Source: Tieghemostelium lacteum
Lineage: Eukaryota > Evosea > Eumycetozoa > Dictyosteliales > Raperosteliaceae
Direction of reading: 5' to 3'
Assembly: GCA_001606155.1 (NCBI GenBank)
Contig: LODT01000006.1
Coordinates: 434,001 to 498,000 of the forward strand
DNA: 64,000 nucleotides
The position numbers and the translations under genes are program-made. Positions 1 to 44,028 of the stretch are shown here, in pieces; positions within the stretch are counted from its first letter, which is position 1; the number at the start of each line of letters is the position of its first letter. Under the pieces are notes generated by a model. It was not told the origin of the DNA. It searched no databases and saw nothing but the letters and a program-made list of their open reading frames with translations.

Positions 1-1193
1 TTGAGACTTGGTGGTAGAGGTTTAGTCAATTGACCTATATTGTAACTTATGGTGTAATGTGTTAATGAATCAGGTAAATAAACATCACCTGAAAATTTAT
101 CCAAATCCAGTTTCTTTAGATTCTTAGGTAGAACAGCTTTACCAAGTGATCCTGGTAGATAACGTACATTTAAATAGGTTAGAGAATCAGGTAAACAGTG
201 TTCTTTTAGAGGTCCAGATTTGATATTCAATGTCAAGCTCTTCAAAGACAATGGTAATGAATGTAAATCAATTATAGCTGTACATTCATATTCTGAGAGC
301 ACTAGAGTTTCTAAATTTTTAGGTAGATTACGCACTAAATTATCGTAGTTTGTGAAAATTAAAGTTTTTATCGAATCGGGTAGAACACCTTCTTCGAATT
401 GATTTTGGTAATCAATCTTTAGATATTCTAAACCATTGGGTAAAACACCAGTCCTCAGCATCTTATTATTACGAGTATATTTGATTGCTAGTGATTTTAA
501 ACCTCTTGGTATTACCCTATCACTGGTTATTTCATTTTCTATTGCTCCAATTTCAAGTTTTACTAATGAAGCAGGTAGATCTCCTTCAACTATATTTCCA
601 AAGTAATTAGGAATTATTAATGTTACCAAGTTATTTAGTACACTCATAATAGGACCACTATAAAATGGTTGATGAATATATAGGTACTCTATTTTTAATG
701 GTACATTAAAATGATCTAAATCTATGGCACCATAGATACTAATTGATTTTATAGTATCATTTGTCACTTTAAAACCTGTAAATTGCTTTCTATGACTATA
801 GATTGAACATGATATCTTTGTAATATCTAATGGCAATGATTCCAAATATTTTGTGTAAATTTGGTAATGTGTTATATCCATATTCAAACTTCTAAAATAT
901 TTGGGAAGATGTTGAAATATCTCTATAGGATTAGTTTGTTCGACTACATTCTTATCCTTTAGTGTTACTCTATAATATAGATCGGCACATTTACTCCAAA
1001 TAGATCTATTTTGTATCTCTTCCTCATATTCATCAGCTACTCTCTTGCAATAGTAAATTGGGAAATTAAACCATCTAATTCTATTTTTAAATGTATAAGT
1101 AGAACTTGATAAACTAATAAAATTTAAAATGTCTTTATTGTTATCCAATAATTCTATAATACTAGAAATCACAAAAAAATTATTTAATATCAT
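1..1193 (-). CDS. FNIP-repeat protein, partial (C-terminus outside window)
   Basis: Reading from the ATG at 1193 gives an open frame of about 397 codons with no stop before the window edge, so the 3' end is missing. The first 50 residues (MILNNFFVISSIIELLDNN...) match the start of the next gene (1302-2999) and look F-box-like: two hydrophobic helices followed by an aromatic/basic patch. The rest is a run of leucine-rich units with the recurrent LPxSLxxL core (for example VLPDSIKTL, CLPDSLTYL, YLPDSLTHY) spaced 20-25 residues apart, as in dictyostelid FNIP repeats. FNIP proteins are a large dictyostelid family thought to serve as substrate receptors or scaffolds; this member's own role is unknown. 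It is a tandem paralogue of its neighbour. There is no in-frame ATG upstream of 1193. Confidence 0.8.
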   Translation of the reverse strand, partial: MILNNFFVISSIIELLDNNKDILNFISLSSSTYTFKNRIRWFNFPIYYCKRVADEYEEEIQNRSIWSKCADLYYRVTLKDKNVVEQTNPIEIFQHLPKYFRSLNMDITHYQIYTKYLESLPLDITKISCSIYSHRKQFTGFKVTNDTIKSISIYGAIDLDHFNVPLKIEYLYIHQPFYSGPIMSVLNNLVTLIIPNYFGNIVEGDLPASLVKLEIGAIENEITSDRVIPRGLKSLAIKYTRNNKMLRTGVLPNGLEYLKIDYQNQFEEGVLPDSIKTLIFTNYDNLVRNLPKNLETLVLSEYECTAIIDLHSLPLSLKSLTLNIKSGPLKEHCLPDSLTYLNVRYLPGSLGKAVLPKNLKKLDLDKFSGDVYLPDSLTHYTISYNIGQLTKPLPPSL

Positions 1194-1301
1194 TGTCAAT
1201 GTCTCTTTAGATGGTTGTAAAATCAAAATAATTTTTTTTTATTGCCATATAAACTTTTGTTGTGTTTATTTGAAATGTGTTTAGGGAAAATGAATAATCT
1301 A

Positions 1302-2999
1302 TTATTTTAATTTCAATTTAGTTCTTACTTGGGCAATAATTATTAAAATGAGTAGAATTCCTGTTAGAATTCCCAGAGTTATTATCAAATTTCTCACTCC
1401 AAAAATCTTCAACATCATCGATATAAATCCAAAGAGTGAAACGATTTTAAAATATATCAAATCATTTGTTTTTGATGTTTTAGTTGAAAGAAATCTCTCT
1501 ACCTTGTATTTAGTAGATATATAAGGTGTATGTACACGATCATCAATAGATAGATATTTTAAAGATCTAGGTGCAAAGTCAAATAAAGAACCTGAAACAT
1601 ATTCTACAACCAATCCTTGTCTTGTGAGTGTTAAACTTGTTAAATTGGGTGGTAAGTCATTCACAGCAAATAAACAGGTTCCTCCAGACATGTTTGGTAA
1701 TGTCATTGATGTCAATGTAGATGGTAATTTAGATGGCAGAGGTTTATATATTGCACCACCTTCAATTACCAATGTCTTCAAATATTTTGGAATAATGCTT
1801 TCAGTGATTCCACATGTATAAAACGTATCACTTTTTAAAACTAAATGTTCAATAGAGTCTGGCATTGGACCATGAAAAGCACCCCCTCTGCTAAACCATA
1901 TTGTGAGTTTTTTTAATTTTTCTGGGAGAAAATGTGTATGGATATTATCGCAACGTACAGTTAGATCCTCAATGGAGACTGGTAGTTTGGGAATTGTCAA
2001 ACTCCAATTATGGGTATTAATGGTCATAATTTGTATACTATTTGGTAGTCCATTGTATTCAATAGTGTGATTACCATTAAAGTCCCAATAAAACTCTCTG
2101 ATACTATTGGGAATGACACCAATACGTGTCAATCTATTGTAAACTGAATTTGATAATGATGGCTTAAATTCCAATCTAGTGACACTTGATGGGATAGACC
2201 AAACTTTTAGATCTACATTGGAATATCTAGTATCTATATCTAGTCTGGTTAAACTAGATGGTAAAACATCTGGAGAAAGTTCCTTTACACCTCCACCAAT
2301 AATCAAATGTTTTACAGATGATGGTATATCACCTTTTATAATTTGATAACAACCAATACCCAGTACTTCTAAAGTCTCTGGTAAGTTGGTTAATGCGTGT
2401 CTATAATATGGTCCAACAACCAATTTACGTAAGTATGGTGGTAACATTCCATTTTCAAATGGTCTATTAAACTCTCGCCCAAATGTCAATTCTGTTAATG
2501 ATTCTGGAAATATTCCAATATTTCCTAAAATGGATTTGAAATAGTTTCCAATTCTCAGAGATTTAAGACCTTCTTTAAAAACACCAACTTTAAAAGTTGA
2601 TTGTATACCATCCAGTTCACAATGGACCATGTTCATTGGTAACTGCTTTTTCAGAGCCTTTACCTCTTTATCCAATATCCATGTTGGTATATTCAATCTT
2701 GCAATTACAGCTTGATCAGATAATAATTGATACTGATGATCATTTAATTCAATACTATTGAATTTGGATGGTATCTTATAGGTTACTATATCATCATTTC
2801 TATAAAATGATTTTGATGGGAATCTTCTATATCTCAATTGATTTCTAAATGAATATGAACTTTTACAAGTTCTAACCAAATTGATTATATCCCTATTGTT
2901 ATCTAAATGTTTAGAAATTTCATTTAACAAAAAAAAGTTATTTACTAATCTATTACTATTACTAATCTTAATATTCTTTTTAGTGCAATATTTAAACAT
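1302..2999 (-). CDS. FNIP-repeat protein with F-box-like N-terminus and C-terminal membrane anchor
   Basis: 565 residues. Residues about 20-60 (FFLLNEISKHLDNNRDIINL then CKSSYSFRNQ) resemble a degenerate F-box-like head. Residues about 140-490 hold many FNIP-type units such as FPESLTELTFGREFN, IPSSVKHLIIG and LPSSLTRLDI. Unusually, the tail has a strong hydrophobic segment at about 538-557 (LIITLGILTGILLILIIIAQ) followed by a short basic end (VRTKLKLK), with a weaker hydrophobic stretch just before it (about 515-533). This predicts a tail-anchored protein with the repeats in the cytosol. The arrangement would place a ubiquitin-ligase-like adaptor on a membrane, but that role is inferred. It is a tandem copy of the partial gene at 1-1193 and diverges from the plus-strand gene at 3271. 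Confidence 0.85.
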   Translation of the reverse strand: MFKYCTKKNIKISNSNRLVNNFFLLNEISKHLDNNRDIINLVRTCKSSYSFRNQLRYRRFPSKSFYRNDDIVTYKIPSKFNSIELNDHQYQLLSDQAVIARLNIPTWILDKEVKALKKQLPMNMVHCELDGIQSTFKVGVFKEGLKSLRIGNYFKSILGNIGIFPESLTELTFGREFNRPFENGMLPPYLRKLVVGPYYRHALTNLPETLEVLGIGCYQIIKGDIPSSVKHLIIGGGVKELSPDVLPSSLTRLDIDTRYSNVDLKVWSIPSSVTRLEFKPSLSNSVYNRLTRIGVIPNSIREFYWDFNGNHTIEYNGLPNSIQIMTINTHNWSLTIPKLPVSIEDLTVRCDNIHTHFLPEKLKKLTIWFSRGGAFHGPMPDSIEHLVLKSDTFYTCGITESIIPKYLKTLVIEGGAIYKPLPSKLPSTLTSMTLPNMSGGTCLFAVNDLPPNLTSLTLTRQGLVVEYVSGSLFDFAPRSLKYLSIDDRVHTPYISTKYKVERFLSTKTSKTNDLIYFKIVSLFGFISMMLKIFGVRNLIITLGILTGILLILIIIAQVRTKLKLK

Positions 3000-3270
3000 A
3001 TCAATAACAATAGAAACAGTGAATCACAAGGGAGAAATTGAAATTTTACATAATGAAAAGTGAGAAACTGTTAATAAAAAAAAAAAATCAAATCACTTTT
3101 CTGTGTTCATCAAATTGTAAAATATAAAGAAAATATATAAATATACAAATTAAAAATCAAATATAGATTTGAAATGAAATATCTTACTTTTTGAATTTAA
3201 TATTATTTATTATAAATTTTTTTTGTTTTTTATTTTATCTGCATATTTTTGTTTGATCAAATAAGATAGA

Positions 3271-31013: not shown

Positions 31014-32470
31014 TTAAGATGGTTGTAGGAAAGGTTGGATTCTTTTTAAGAGAGCTGGTGACAGATGTTTACTGACAAGTTGTGGAGAGATTACACTTGC
31101 AGATCGTGGTGATGATTTACCACTACTGTGATCGTCGTCACTGCTATTGATACTAATAGGTACTAATGATATAGAAGATGGAGTTGAATCGATGGTAGGT
31201 GAAGAAGGAGCAGAATCTGCAGAACAGGAATTGGTTGATAACTTTCTTTTTAGTTTTGGTGAATGTGGAGGTGAAGTGAAATTGTGATCAGTCGAAGACA
31301 ATGCAAATTCAATAAATGAATCTGATTTCTTATCACTATTGCTATTTACATTAAATGGTGGTGTTGATGATGCTGATGATATATTATGTACATTTAAATA
31401 AAGTTTACTTCCTGGAGATGATGTTAGTTTATTAGTATCTACAGAAGAACAGGATTGAATTTGAACTTGTGGTAATGGGTGCCAGAAATTTGGACCACTT
31501 TGAATGGCGCCAACACCCATAACGGATAGACTATTAATTTGGTAAAATTCTTTCATTAATTCGACATCAGACAGTGTAAGTTCGTATTCCTTTGCATTGG
31601 TAACAGTTCTCTGATATAAATGGTCAAATAGTATCTTTCTAAACTGACTCTCACTAAGGAAACTGTGTGGAGAAACTGTATAATATAAATCTTCATTTCC
31701 CTTGTCGCTTATTAGAATTGGTCTACCATCAGTTGAAAATCTATCAAAACCAATATACATGGATACATCTTCAACTTCAACACCATAATATTGCATAATT
31801 AATTCATTTTTATTTGGTTCTATATAAATATTAGTATATTGTTTTTTTTTAGGTTTTGGTAGGTATACATACGTCTATTGTATTTATTATAAAATAAAAG
31901 TGTATTTTTAATGATTGTATTTGATGGTTCATCGATATTAGTTCCAAATAGGACAACTCTTTTTGTATTTTGTTTAGTCTTTTCCATGATTAATTCAAAT
32001 TTATCTAGAAGAGCTTGATCATTACCTCGTAGTAAAAGCTCACGATATTCACCGTAGAATATAACCCTGATACCTTCAGATTCGTATAGTCTTAATAGAG
32101 ATTCATCTTCGAGTAAATGAACGACACCCCATAGATATTGAATGAACTTTGGTAAATACTCTGGACCTCTTTGTTCAAGTGTACAGAACCACATTGGATA
32201 GACTATAGTTTGGATACCATGTTGAAACATCATTACTAAGTGATATAGTAATTTCTTGAATGCAACTTTACTGTATTGGTTATAATCAATTTTCATTGTT
32301 GACGATCCATGGTTATTACCCATTGACTTTATACCCTCTTCAATTAGAAAACTTCTTCTTGTACCATCGTAGGCATAGACAATAGTGTTATTTTTACCTT
32401 TTTTGGTTTCAACAATATCTTTAATTGTTTGTGTTGATATTTTTAAAAATTCTGAAATGTCCATTGTCAT
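31014..32470 (-). CDS. Homologue of mycobacterial tuberculosinol synthase Rv3378c (cis-prenyltransferase-like), 2 exons
   Basis: Exons 32470-31873 and 31819-31014, with a 53 bp GTATGT...ATAG intron, give 467 residues. The first about 310 align end to end with M. tuberculosis Rv3378c (296 residues, recalled from memory): TIVYAYDGTRRSFLIEEGI with FPFDGTRRWF, MMFQHGIQTIVYPMW with MLFEHGIETVISPIF, RVIFYGEYRELL with HVLFYGDYKKRL, and YIGFDRFSTDGRPIL then LYYTVSPHSFLSESQFRKIL with the matching bacterial blocks. Asp35 and Arg38-Arg39 of the DGTRR motif are kept; Asp34 is catalytic in Rv3378c, which has a cis-prenyltransferase fold and converts tuberculosinyl diphosphate to tuberculosinol or its adenosine conjugate. 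Residues about 315-467 are a Ser-rich tail absent from the bacterial protein. The splice rebuilds RQPNKNELIMQYYG, matching the bacterial EIIEGYYG region. Substrate here is unknown. Confidence 0.88.
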
Positions 32471-37059: not shown

Positions 37060-40000
37060 ATGGACAGTGATATTAATTTGTATACTTCTGCTGGAAGTGT
37101 ACCTGTATATGTACAGCCACCACAACAGACACCAGTGAATGGTTATAGATATACATTTGTAGGTGAGGCTTTAGATCAGAATTCCGAAGTAGATAAACTA
37201 TCTGAAACTTCAGAGACATCATTTACTTCTAAATCTAGTTATAATGCCAACAAGGTGATATATTCACCAGATAGCTCTGGTAATCAATTATATTTTGGAG
37301 CTGCTATAAATAACATTTATTCAGCTGAAAATGACGAAGTAACAACAGTTCAAGAAGAAAGAGCTTGGGGTGACAATCTATCTGTTAGTGCACTTAGAAA
37401 TATTGAGGATTTTGAATTTTCAAGTAATTATTAAATATTCTATTAAAATTTTAATTCAAATAATATTAATTATTTGTAATTAATGTAACATAGAGGAGAT
37501 TGTGCATTGGAATGAAGAGTTTCAAAGTTTATTGGATCAAGAAGATACACCAGAGAGATTTCAGAGATTATCATCAATGGCCAATGATTTTGTATATTGT
37601 GCGGATATATTTGGAAAAATTATCATTTCCGAGTTACATTTACCATTTGATGAAAAGACTATTAAACCTTCTTTGGATTTAGGTGGTGTTGCAGGTGGTC
37701 AGAAATATAAATGTCGTGATATCATTTTTAAATTTGCAGCAGATACTGAAGTGACACCTGGACTCTGGATGTATGGTGGAACTGGTAAAGCTGACAGTTT
37801 TGCTCAAAAATCTACAAATCATGAATTAAACGGTCTCAATCATGTGATGGATATATATGGTGGCAAAGGAGGTCTTATTAGATTTCCTTTGATTGCAATT
37901 ATCGATTATAGAGGATACAGATTATTGGCATTATCTCAATTACCAATCAACAAATCTACAATTGTCTATGGAAGTTGTGATGGTGGTAAAACTGTTCATT
38001 CATCAGTTCCTGAAATCAACAAAGAAATGGAAAGAATTGCAGGAATATTGAATTTGAAAGGACATATTGTGGGTTTACCAAAAACGACTATATTCGGACC
38101 AGGAGATATTGAAGTACATAAAGGAACTGATGGAAGATATTACATGTTAGATTTCGCCAGAATGTTTCCACCAGAGTATCCTTTGATATTTAATAACAAA
38201 GCTGGTCAGAAAATTGGAAGAGAGATATTTTATAATATGCTCAGACCAGAATTAGTTAAATTTTATCCACAAGCATTGAGTAGTGATGGTTTCTCAGGTT
38301 GGCAGACATGTTTATTTACACAAGATGAACTAAATCGTGATATTACAAAGGCTACAGATTACCTTCATAGTCAGGTAATACCCAAAGTCATTCAAAAATT
38401 AAATGAGATTCCTGAAGAAGACTATTCACCAGCACCACATAAGGCACATGAAATCATTAAAATCAATAATTTGATTCATATCGCTGGTGTAAATTTCAGA
38501 TATCTTGGTGTGATATGTAGAGATATCAAAGTACCTTGTGTAAAGGAAATTTTGATTACTGAAATTATTGCAAGAGTTTGGAAGAGAATAACCAGATCTA
38601 GGTTGAGAAAACTGATGGATATCACCAGAAGACCATCTGAAGATCCATATAAACTAATAATAGCTGATATCTTTAAAGTTCTCTTAGATCCAACTCAACC
38701 AAATCAAGATAGATTCTGGAGTGAATCTTCACCTGGAAATCTAAAATACATTGCAATGGAGATATTCCCTCGATGTCTCAACGATGAAGAAAAGAAATCG
38801 AATGTAGACCTTAGAAATCTTATTGATATTAAATTATTGGTTATAAGATTAACTCAAATGCTGAATATACGTATTAGTTTGAGTACTTTAAATCAATTCC
38901 TTCTCACACCAGATTCAAGACCATTTGTACAGATTGGGATCAGCGATATTGATGAAGTTGGATCTACTATTAAATACCCATACATAATTGATTTCAGTTG
39001 TGGTAGTAATAATCTTAGAGAGACTAGAAAAATTGTTGATAATCCTAACAAAGAGATTGATGTTCTCGAAGCTGATAGATGGGTTGATGATACCAAGCTC
39101 AAACTCAATGATGCGTTGGCTAGTATACCATCATCCTATCAGGTTCAGTTACAATTCCTTCGAGCACTTTATATAAAGTCATCGGTAATTAAGGCTCCAA
39201 ATGAACCATTTAGAATTCTCACTCTATTACTATCAATGGTACCCTCATTGGACATTACACAACAAAAATCACCATTACTACAGTCACTTGTTGGACTCTA
39301 CCATTTGAAATTGGCTTCTAGTAACTTGTTTTTTAGAGAATGCTCTTCTTGTGAGAAATTCCATAAAGAGTTGGAAATGGCAAAGAATGCATTCGAAAAG
39401 GCACTCAGTCAAGACGAAGAATGTTTACATGAACTGATTTCCAATTCTCTACCAACTAGACACTTGTATACTCCAGATTTACTTTCAATAGACCCTGTTG
39501 AGCCTCACGAGAGATTAGTGGAATACAAGACTAGAAAACTCTATGAACTCTTTACTCTTATATATATGCTGAACCATCTACAAGACCCTGACTCTATTCT
39601 TCACGACGTGTTCCAAGATTACATCTCCCAAATACAACAAATTGACAATTTTGAACTCTCTGAAGAGCTATCAGTCATCAATGGCAACAATAATGTTCTG
39701 TATGGGTTTTTTGATAGATTAGAGAACCTAAAACTATTGGTACTAAATCCATTTAATATGGATCAGGTGATATCAAATCACATTTCAAAAATGAACTCGC
39801 TTCAGTACTTGACATTAAATGGCGTGAATTTTAATATGCTTCATAATAAGTCTAATACATTCTTTAAATCTCTTCTAGGGAATTGTAAATTGGTCCAATT
39901 ATCTATTAATGATTGTGAATTAGATAAAAATTCCTTCGATGGATGCTTTGAAAATCTAAATTCACTAGTATCATTAGAGGTGGTAAACTGTCAACTTCCA

Positions 40001-40405
40001 GATACAGTATTACTACAAATCAGTAAAAATCTATCGAATATCAAAAAATTAGTTCTCAAACAATCTAAAGAGTTCACTGATTCCACTATTTGTCAATTAT
40101 TGATAAATATTAAATCTAGATTAGAAATTCTCAATTTGAATGATTGTTTTAATCTCACTGATAAAATTGTATCTGTATTGATAGAAAACCAACCAAAATT
40201 AAAAAACCTATCATTAGCATTACCATTGTTAACTCAGGAGTCTAAAAATCATCTACAAAAAACATTTCCAGTGGTATTATTTATCTCTAAAAAGAGGCGA
40301 AATACATCTTCTTCAGGTAGTAAAAGTGGAAATATTAAAAATAGTTATGGTATATTAAGCTTTTCACATGAATATATATTGACATATAAAAGTCTACGGT
40401 CATAA
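37060..40405 (+). CDS. CLU-like/LRR protein, tandem copy A (2 exons)
   Basis: Exons 37060-37423 and 37494-40405 (70 bp intron) give 1,091 residues. The small first exon ends with the module VQEERAWGDNLSVSALRNIE. Exon 2 carries a region like the CLU domain of clustered-mitochondria proteins: GGLIRFPLIAIIDYRGYRLL, SQLPINKSTIVYGSCDGGKT and GPGDIEVHKGTDGRYYMLDF followed by ARMFPPE (about 230-390). A helical middle follows (RVWKRITRSRLRKLMDITRR near 490), then a C-terminal leucine-rich region (about 870-1060; LVQLSINDCELDKNSF, RLEILNLNDCFNLTDKIVSV). CLU proteins act in mitochondrial distribution and bind mRNAs; this shorter CLU plus LRR form is a separate family and its role is unknown. Its neighbour 40766-44028 is a tandem duplicate with the same intron position. 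Confidence 0.82.
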
Positions 40406-40765: not shown

Positions 40766-43700
40766 ATGGATTATAAAAATAGTGGATATGCCGATGAAGT
40801 AAATTTATACACAACCGAACCACAAACTCAAAACTATAGATATACATTCAATGATGATATCTCAGAATCATCATCATTGGGATCAGTTAGTAGTTATAAT
40901 CCAAATGTTGTAGTCTATTCTGAGACCTCTGGAAATAATCTATATTTTGGTGCGGAGGTCTCTAATGTCTATGGATCAAACGAACAAATTACAACCATAC
41001 AAGAGGAAAAGGCTTGGGGTGACAATTTAGCAGTCAGTACACTGAAAAATATCGAAGATTATGATATTTCTAGTAGGTATAGTTTAATAAATCAAAATGA
41101 GATATGAGTGTGATATTAATCTTGATTGTTAATGTAGGAGAGATTTTACATTGGAATGAAGAGTTTCAAAAAATTCTAGATGAGGAAGAGACCCCAGAGA
41201 GACATCAAAAATTATCAACTATTGCCAATGATTTTGTATATTGTGCTGATATTTTTGGAAAAATTATCATTTCCGAATTGCATCTACCTTTGGAAAATAA
41301 AACTATAAAACCTTTGGATTTAGGTGGTGTTGCAGGGGGTCAGAAATTTAGATGTCAGGATATAATATTTAAATTTGCAGCAGATACTGAAGTGACACCT
41401 GGACTCTGGATGTATGGTGGCTGTAATCAAGCTGATAGTTTTGCTCAAAAATCTACAAATCATGAATTAAATGGTCTCAATCATGTGATGGATGTATATG
41501 GAATGAAAGGTGGTCTTATTAGGTTCCCTTTAATGGCAATTATTGATTATAGAGGATACAGATTATTGGCATTATCTCAATTACCAATAAATAAATCTAC
41601 AATTGTCTATGGAAGTTGTGATGGTGGTAAAACTGTTCATTCATCAGTTCCTGAAATCAACAAAGAAATGGAAAGAATTGCAGGAATATTGAATTTGAGA
41701 GGGCATGTTGTGGGTTTACCAAAGTCATTTATATACGGTCCAGGAGATATTGAAGTACATAAAGGAACTGATGGAAGATATTACATGTTAGATTTCGCCA
41801 GAATGTTTCCACCAGAGTATCCTTTGATATTTAATAACAAAGCTGGTCAGAAAATTGGAAGAGAGATATTTTATAATATGCTCAGACCAGAATTAGTTAA
41901 ATCTTATCCACAAGCATTGAGTAGTGATGGTTTCTCAGGTTGGCAAACTTCATTGTTTGAAGATGACCTCAATCGTGATATTACAAAGGCTACTGATTAC
42001 CTTCATGGAAAGGTTATACCTAATCTAGTACATAATCTAAATCTGACACCTGAAGAAGACTATTCACCAGCACCACATAAGGCACATGAAGTTGTTAAAA
42101 ATCTAAATATAATCCACCACACTGGTGTAAATTTCAGATATCTTGGTGTGATATGTAGAGATATCAAAGTACCTTGTGTAAAGGAAATTTTGATCACTGA
42201 AATTATTGCAAGAGTTTGGAAAAGAATAACCAGATCTAGGTTGAGAAAACTGATGGATATCACCAGAAGACCATCTGAAGATCCATATAAACTAATAATA
42301 GCTGATATCTTTAAAGTTCTCTTAGATCCAACTCAACCAAATCAAGATAGATTCTGGAGTGAATCTTCACCTGGAAATCTAAAATACATTGCAATGGAGA
42401 TATTCCCTCGATGTCTCAACGATGAAGAAAAGAAACCGAATATTGATCTTAGAAAACTAATTGATATCAAGTTACTGGTGATAAGGTATATTCAAATGAT
42501 GAATATACGTATAAATCTAAGCACATTTAACCAATTCCTTCACACACCAGATTCAAGACCATTTGTACAGATTGGGGTCAGCGATATTGATGAAGTTGGA
42601 TCTACTATTAAATACCCTTATGTAATTGATTTCAGTTGTGGTAGTCAGTTTATGAAAGAAACTAGAGCAATTGTTGATAACCCTCACAAGGAGATTGATA
42701 TACTAGAAGCCGATAGATCTGCTGATGATGCAAAACTAAAATTTAGTGAGGCCATTATTAAACTGCCATCAGCCTTCCAAATCCATTTACAATTCTTTAG
42801 AAGTTTATACTTCAAATCCACTGTAATCAAGGCTCCAAATGAACCATTTAGAATTCTAAATGTGCTTTTGACTTTGGTTTCTGTCTCCAGAGCTGAGTTA
42901 CAACAAACTACCGATATCCAATCACTTGTTGGACTCTACCATTTGAAGTTAGCTTGTAGTCATTTGTTTTTTAGTGACCGTCCATCTATTGAAACATTCG
43001 AAAAGGAACTAGATTTGGCCAGAGAAGCTTTTGAAAACGCACTTTCCAAAGACCCAACATGTATAGATGATCTTATTATCAACTCTATACCAACTAAACA
43101 TGTATATCCACCTAATTTACTCTCAATTGCACCTATCGATCCTCATGAGAGATTAGTTGAATATAAAAAGAGAAAACTCTATGAATTATTGACTCTGATC
43201 TATCTTCTAGAACGTGTAGAGTCACAATCAGTCTTACACACTGTATTCCAAAGATTCATCTCCCAGATACAACAAATTGATAATTTCGAAATATCTGAAG
43301 AGTTTGCATCAATCAATGCCGACAATAGTCTATTACATAGTTTCTTTGGTAGACTTAAAAATCTGAAAATTTTACACCTCAACCCCATTAATATGGATCA
43401 TGTAATATCAAATCATATTGCTAATATGTCTAAACTACAGTACCTGTATCTAACTGGTGTAAATTTCTTGCCACTTGCTAATAAGTCCAATACATTCTTT
43501 AAATCTCTTCTAGGGAATTGTAAATTGGTCCAACTATCAATTAATGATTGTGAATTGGATGAAAATACATTCAAATGGTGCTTTGAACATCTAAATTCAC
43601 TAGTATCATTTGAATTGGTAAATTGTCAACTTCCAGATGTAGTATTACTACAAATCAGCAAAAATCTATCGAACATCAAAAAATTAGTTCTCAAACAATC

Positions 43701-44028
43701 TAAAGAGTTCACTGATTCCACCATATGTCAATTATTGATAAATCTTAAATCTAGATTAGAAATTCTCAATTTGAATGATTGTTTTAATCTCACTGATAAA
43801 ATTGTATCTGTATTGATAGATAACCACCCTAAACTAAAGTACCTATCACTAGCATTACCATTACTAAGTGAAGAATCTAAAAGTAAATTAACAGCATCAT
43901 ACAAACACATTCACCTACTATTTGCCAAACCAAAAACAATAAGTTTTTCAAAAAGTAATAGTTTCTCAAGTTTTAATAATTTAACACATCAAGAATATGT
44001 ATTAACTTACAAGAGCCTAAGGTCATAA
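40766..44028 (+). CDS. CLU-like/LRR protein, tandem copy B (2 exons)
   Basis: Exons 40766-41072 and 41138-44028 (65 bp intron, same phase 1 position as copy A; splice yields YDISREILHWNEEF against FEFSKEIVHWNEEF in A) give 1,065 residues. Domain order is as in copy A: WGDNL module, CLU-like block (GGLIRFPLMAIIDYRGYRLL; GPGDIEVHKGTDGRYYMLDF), helical middle, then LRRs ending EYVLTYKSLRS, a C-terminus shared exactly with copy A. Some stretches of 150-240 bp are nearly identical to copy A while others, such as residues for 42700-42900, have diverged strongly. This is either differential constraint or gene conversion. The final LTYKSLRS motif is conserved and may be functional. Confidence 0.82.

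Follow-up and report, generated by a model that had tools for sequence, protein, structure and literature searches.

Rv3378c of Mycobacterium tuberculosis couples tuberculosinyl diphosphate to adenosine (PMC11476799). The genes have been said to be confined to virulent Mycobacterium species (PMC7180734), early attempts to detect orthologues beyond the mycobacteria were unsuccessful (PMC11476799), and a 2022 survey reported Rv3378c equivalents in 44% of the gene clusters with Rv3377c homologues (PMC9814783). The kolavelool synthase of Herpetosiphon aurantiacus (HaKS), also a cis-prenyltransferase-family enzyme, hydrolyses an allylic diphosphate, the same reaction type as that of Rv3378c (PMC8131916); the substrate breadth of the Herpetosiphon enzyme has been reported (PMC9440906, PMC11070974), and further background is given in PMC7587436 and PMC7321100. 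On the eukaryotic side, a 2021 study using I-TASSER identified 3wqm, a structure of Rv3378c, as the solved structure closest to the Dictyostelium discoideum protein DDB_G0275279, there called a hydrolase and, in the available text, without the name Rv3378c (PMC8280847), and the available text of PMC3470408 holds no mention of amoeba, Dictyostelium or eukaryotes. The open-licence PubMed Central (PMC) literature yielded no paper linking tuberculosinol with Dictyostelium or Anaerolinea, or tuberculosinyl with Chloroflex; six dictyostelid gene identifiers were not mentioned there, and DDB_G0275279 appeared in one paper. Here we analyse DLAC_01649, a gene of the social amoeba Tieghemostelium lacteum lying in a stretch of 64,000 nucleotides (contig LODT01000006.1, positions 434,001 to 498,000; hereafter the window), and find that it belongs to a eukaryotic, apparently cyclase-less branch of this known enzyme family.

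The ATG-to-stop span covers 1457 bp on the minus strand, comprising 467 codons, the stop codon and an intron of 53 bp, exactly where an earlier note on this DNA had placed it. Three splice options are open, and the chosen one gives the T. lacteum protein DLAC_01649 (P0001), with 100% identity over 100% of its 467 residues. Searched in six frames, the genome (23.3 Mb in 43 contigs) matches only at the two exons of this gene at the sensitivity used. The parts of the gene are as follows.

31014..32470, minus strand: whole gene DLAC_01649, an Rv3378c-family protein of 467 residues (splice model, identity with the public protein, match in the Protein Data Bank, PDB)
31873..32470, minus strand: exon 1, 598 nt, coding for residues 1-199 plus one base of codon 200 (splice model; genome match C4:465871-466470)
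31820..31872, minus strand: intron, 53 bp, GTATGT...ATAG (splice model; spliced product identical to DLAC_01649)
31014..31819, minus strand: exon 2, including the stop codon (splice model; six-frame genome search)
31470..32470, minus strand, intron included: catalytic core, residues 1-316, cis-prenyltransferase fold

A phmmer search of 177,635 PDB sequences with DLAC_01649 finds Rv3378c, represented by four sequences at E 2.4e-39 to 2.7e-38, and up to E 1 only one further row, at 0.99. The best alignment takes in residues 6-309 (138.3 bits, E 2.4e-39), so that homology extends over the whole domain, and the blocks singled out by the earlier note are all present: DGTRR (residues 35-39), HGIQT (84-88), FYGEY (138-142), IGFDRFST (222-229) and YYTVSP (245-250). 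Its proposal of a cis-prenyltransferase fold is borne out as well, the nearest solved fold being that of Rv3378c, ahead of other cis-prenyltransferases. Two consecutive P-loop arginines and the active-site tyrosines are in place, and profile searches connect the amoebal and bacterial relatives of Rv3378c in one family, to which DLAC_01649 belongs by sequence, fold and motif. It differs from Rv3378c in being eukaryotic and spliced, in having a net 14 more residues between DGTRR and Tyr66, and in a tail of about 150 residues.

No Pfam family matches DLAC_01649 at E up to 1, PF01255 included, and NCBIfam offers no meaningful family. T. lacteum has a separate gene for an ordinary cis-prenyltransferase of the type of UppS and DHDDS (PF01255, E 7.3e-69, on C42), and DLAC_01649 is far nearer to Rv3378c in both sequence and fold. 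On these three results we reject an ordinary cis-prenyltransferase; the idea that DLAC_01649 elongates chains, for which the shared fold superfamily could be invoked, is hardly credible.

In the PDB alignment, Asp35, Arg38, Arg39, Tyr66 and Tyr105 align with Asp34, Arg37, Arg38, Tyr51 and Tyr90 of Rv3378c, the importance of the two Rv3378c tyrosines being taken from the PDB titles of mutants solved with substrate. The P-loop role of DGTRR is one that we presume from cis-prenyltransferases.

32354..32368, minus strand: DGTRR, residues 35-39, predicted metal- and diphosphate-binding P-loop (aligned to Rv3378c D34-R38; conservation)
32273..32275, minus strand: Tyr66, counterpart of Rv3378c Tyr51 (alignment; Y51F crystal forms in PDB titles; conservation)
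32156..32158, minus strand: Tyr105, counterpart of Rv3378c Tyr90 (alignment; Y51F/Y90F substrate complex in PDB titles; conservation)

Conservation was counted over 55 aligned rows, 22 of them dictyostelid-type, 30 Chloroflexota-type and 3 remote. All five residues occur in each of the 16 dictyostelid-type rows whose P-loop is intact. Both arginines are kept in 30/30 Chloroflexota-type rows, Tyr66 in 29/30 and Tyr105 in 29/30, and the three remote rows retain the P-loop arginines. The other six dictyostelid-type rows, all from Dictyostelium (P0018, P0019, P0020, P0021, P0024 and P0025) and here called RR-less, lack both arginines and Tyr66; they retain Tyr105 in three cases and keep much of the remaining family signature. 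Since the intact and RR-less groups were defined by the P-loop, the arginine counts follow by construction; the loss of Tyr66 does not. Among the six is DDB_G0275279 of strain AX4, a paralogue within the same dictyostelid clade that matches Rv3378c at E 1.3e-31; unlike DLAC_01649 it no longer has either P-loop arginine or Tyr66, and it probably does not share the catalytic mode. We regard the RR-less proteins as candidate pseudoenzymes, which provide a natural contrast for the P-loop. The persistence of this lineage (6/6 rows without the arginines and Tyr66), together with the long disordered tail of DLAC_01649, could suggest that DLAC_01649 too is a pseudoenzyme or regulatory protein that has kept the fold and lost the chemistry, but the chance of this appears slim: it retains the motif residues counted, and the loss is limited to one branch of the tree.

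The bacterial relatives offer a different kind of context. Most of the Chloroflexota loci examined pair the family member with a neighbouring class II cyclase about 490 residues long: for 19/24 homologue frames a same-strand cyclase lies in the fetched locus, and for 17/24 it lies within 600 bp. These 24 frames were drawn from 26 loci, two of which (L010 and L043) yielded none under the frame-picking rule, and of the five frames without a cyclase, one lies only 35 bp inside the edge of its locus. Rows of the cyclase profile make up ten of the 19 cyclase frames, which match it by construction; three of these ten were confirmed by Pfam. In locus L036 (5347-11441) the order is a FemAB-like protein (a weak match, under the Pfam cut-off), an ICMT-like methyltransferase, the family member, the cyclase, a PAS histidine kinase and a response regulator; the cyclase matches 6vpt, which is Rv3377c (PMC9814783), at E 1.3e-133. 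Locus L005 (6809-12086) holds a FemAB-like protein, here above the Pfam cut-off, followed by the family member, the cyclase and a kinase. In L051, a remote locus of the same phylum, a class II cyclase, the family member (Rv3378c match E 1.9e-14) and a methyltransferase stand in a row, an arrangement that looks as expected of the O-methylkolavelool cluster named in a title cited in PMC8131916. The L051 protein lies much further off than the main Chloroflexota group and reads GGSRR at its P-loop, and we infer that its source may be a Herpetosiphon. The gene for HaKS itself is presumably Haur_2146. Chloroflexota gene pairs of this kind may stand closer to the origin of the mycobacterial terpene-nucleoside genes than do the published plant-plasmid donors (PMC11476799). 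One genome of the phylum, G077, carries two very different family members (L046 and L049); the locus of one contains a cyclase, and the other adjoins ABC-transporter and KAP-NTPase/FGE-sulfatase frames.

In T. lacteum no class II diterpene cyclase was found by six-frame searches, which are blind to introns. The cyclase of L036, used as a query in a search run without a positive control, returned nothing from the genome even at E 10. PF13243 and PF13249 both pick the same 705-residue frame on C30, which we read as a sterol-pathway cyclase, and a second PF13243 place, on C11, falls in a protein-prenyltransferase frame (PF00432). Because PF13243 detects three bacterial partner cyclases at 4.3e-14 to 1.7e-13, a bacterial-type cyclase should show with it unless split by introns. 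The genome does hold four polyprenyl synthase loci. Since no Rv3377c-type cyclase was found in the amoeba, in which it differs from M. tuberculosis, tuberculosinol is an unlikely product, and the name "tuberculosinol synthase" should not be assumed to describe the activity of DLAC_01649; the homology claimed in the earlier note stands as family membership, without the partner cyclase. The observation of the earlier note is confirmed, and its interpretation is supported in part; the role against phagocytosed bacteria that it suggested is speculation.

We favour, with moderate confidence, the view that DLAC_01649 is an active dictyostelid enzyme of the Rv3378c family that, rather than elongating chains, would ionise an allylic prenyl diphosphate. 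The diphosphate would be bound and removed by Mg2+ together with the DGTRR loop (Asp35, Arg38, Arg39), Tyr66 and Tyr105 would line the predicted reaction site, and the allylic cation would be captured by water or another small nucleophile. The likeliest substrate would be a linear C15-C20 diphosphate, farnesyl diphosphate (FPP) or geranylgeranyl diphosphate (GGPP), given that the searches found trans-prenyl diphosphate synthase loci in the genome and no class II diterpene cyclase; the product would be a prenyl alcohol of the nerolidol or geranyllinalool type, or a prenyl conjugate. Enzymes of this type, investigated as virulence determinants in tuberculosis, are now seen in phagocytic, genetically tractable eukaryotes without a detectable cyclase partner, which raises the question of how this fold acts on plain prenyl diphosphates, and of what its product does to phagosomes or development.

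Several observations weigh against this view. Asp35 and both arginines are kept in DLAC_01649 as in Rv3378c, as the earlier note stated, but the P-loop Asp is replaced by Asn in 30/30 Chloroflexota-type rows and by Gly in 2/3 remote rows; it is not a family constant, its presence is therefore weak evidence for activity, and metal use across the family may differ. W94, R232 and H251 are specific to the dictyostelids (16/16 intact rows), where Rv3378c has F, F and S and the 30 bacterial rows have F, mostly M/V/T, and S, and these substitutions may signal an altered reaction. Introns could conceal a split cyclase gene from the six-frame searches, and a cyclase of another family, for instance a HAD-type one, might supply the amoeba with a cyclic diphosphate. 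Finally, the ancestral substrate was probably cyclic, because the bacterial relatives mostly adjoin a cyclase (17/24 within 600 bp). A related reading makes DLAC_01649 a user of cyclic prenyl diphosphate, acting second in a diterpene or sesquiterpene pathway of two steps whose cyclase is unrelated. The frequency of partner cyclases in the bacterial loci (19/24 on the same strand, 17/24 within 600 bp) speaks for such a pathway; we nonetheless hold it to be improbable, given that no squalene-hopene-type cyclase appeared beyond the 705-residue frame and that none of the window frames scanned with Pfam has a terpene-family match.

Dictyostelids use prenyl-purine signals, namely discadenine and cytokinins. 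It is conceivable, if on present evidence unlikely, that DLAC_01649 is a nucleoside or purine prenyltransferase, whose linear-terpene adenosine or adenine would be the amoebal counterpart of 1-tuberculosinyladenosine and would perhaps feed these signals. Adenosine transfer would be possible by analogy with Rv3378c, which performs it on tuberculosinyl diphosphate (PMC11476799), and the core is retained over its full length. On the other hand, PMC8131916 describes substrate hydrolysis by the Herpetosiphon relative, so that adenosine transfer is not known to be general, and W94, R232 and H251 are unlike the bacterial rows.

The distribution of the family bears on the age of the amoebal gene. A single-protein search with DLAC_01649 gave 23 matches, 22 of them dictyostelid-type and one a metagenomic protein, and a profile built from eight dictyostelid-type cores found 25, with Cavenderia fasciculata and three proteins of bacterial type among them. 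These matches include no further named eukaryote, but because the search requires shared five-residue words, absence from other eukaryotes is not established. A mixed profile returned 2292 matches; among the 120 listed, 30 are named "tuberculosinol/isotuberculosinol synthase" or "adenosine tuberculosinyltransferase", and the four with an organism name from outside Dictyostelia are all Chloroflexota. Of 400 genomes drawn from that phylum, 17 match the family profile with E no higher than 1e-10, a count that includes G001, the source of the draw, and three matches weaker than or near 1e-15. With these, and with the bacterial equivalents already surveyed (PMC9814783), the notion that the family is restricted to the M. 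tuberculosis lineage, which the earlier note described as long held, does not survive. The Chloroflexota-type relatives, 29-37% identical to DLAC_01649, are of the same family and occupy a neighbouring branch of the tree, differing from it in the P-loop Asn and the adjoining cyclase. Against Rv3378c, the Chloroflexota-type proteins P0023 and L036 score 262.7 and 256.5 bits, compared with 138.3 bits for DLAC_01649.

In all, 25 dictyostelid-type proteins were found, five of them (P0002, P0006, P0007, P0009 and P0017) so classed by similarity only, and 22 were used in the tree and the site counts. Left out were P0013, whose model has no P-loop segment; P0017, which lacks its C-terminus; and the RR-less P0022, which lacks an internal segment. 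P0013, from Heterostelium, is a family member whose model continues into an FNIP domain (PF05725), possibly through a modelling error. The 30 bacterial rows comprise 21 proteins, of which 20 are among the 120 listed of 2292 and one is from the core profile, and nine loci; three remote loci were added. The resulting tree of 55 rows, from which Rv3378c was left out, was rooted on the three long remote rows.

The 22 dictyostelid-type proteins form one clade (100/100), adjoining the 30 bacterial rows (92/92). Within the clade, one branch (100/99) unites proteins of Cavenderia, Heterostelium and Acytostelium; a larger old branch, at only 89/47, holds those of Acytostelium, Tieghemostelium, Polysphondylium and Dictyostelium; and the RR-less lineage arose from a later Dictyostelium duplication (100/100). 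This topology fits a family member that predates the dictyostelid radiation. On transfer versus shared descent, raised in the earlier note, an ancient transfer from bacteria is likely; nesting of the amoebal genes inside the bacteria is not settled, because the bacterial branch stands at 92/92, the larger old amoebal branch at 89/47 and the root on three long branches. It is a doubtful but far-reaching proposition that social amoebae retain, from a time preceding their radiation, an Rv3378c-type enzyme making a terpene nucleoside or prenyl alcohol for phagosomes or developmental signalling; if true, bacterial phagosome-disabling chemistry would have an ancient counterpart within professional phagocytes.

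Beyond the core, the protein ends in a long extension, in which confidence was gauged by the predicted local distance difference test (pLDDT).

31017..31469, minus strand: Ser/Pro-rich tail, residues 317-467, of which residues 330-449 are below pLDDT 50
31026..31061, minus strand: motif SPxLLxR[MI]QPFL, residues 453-464, a short predicted helix, in four dictyostelid-type proteins

The tail and its terminal helix probably serve regulation or localisation, and the predicted helix is a possible docking or targeting element. The motif is common, without mismatch, to P0001, P0002, P0003 and P0009, and the tails that intervene are unlike one another.

The gene lies on a contig of 1.03 Mb, and the flanking frames scanned with Pfam are ordinary eukaryotic ones. 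This setting makes contamination unlikely, and with the intron added we reject it; a settled, spliced eukaryotic gene is supported, as had been proposed. The window scan took in 19 of the 44 frames listed, four of which match nothing; the other 25 include the two exons of DLAC_01649, which were scanned spliced. A terpene gene cluster in the window was considered and rejected, with 0/19 scanned frames having a terpene-family match, and a tRNA scan of the window found none. Two adjoining FNIP-repeat frames lie at 3-3023 on the minus strand, and two adjacent long frames on the plus strand, at 37484-40402 and 41101-44025, each carry a CLU (clustered mitochondria) domain, apparently as a tandem pair.
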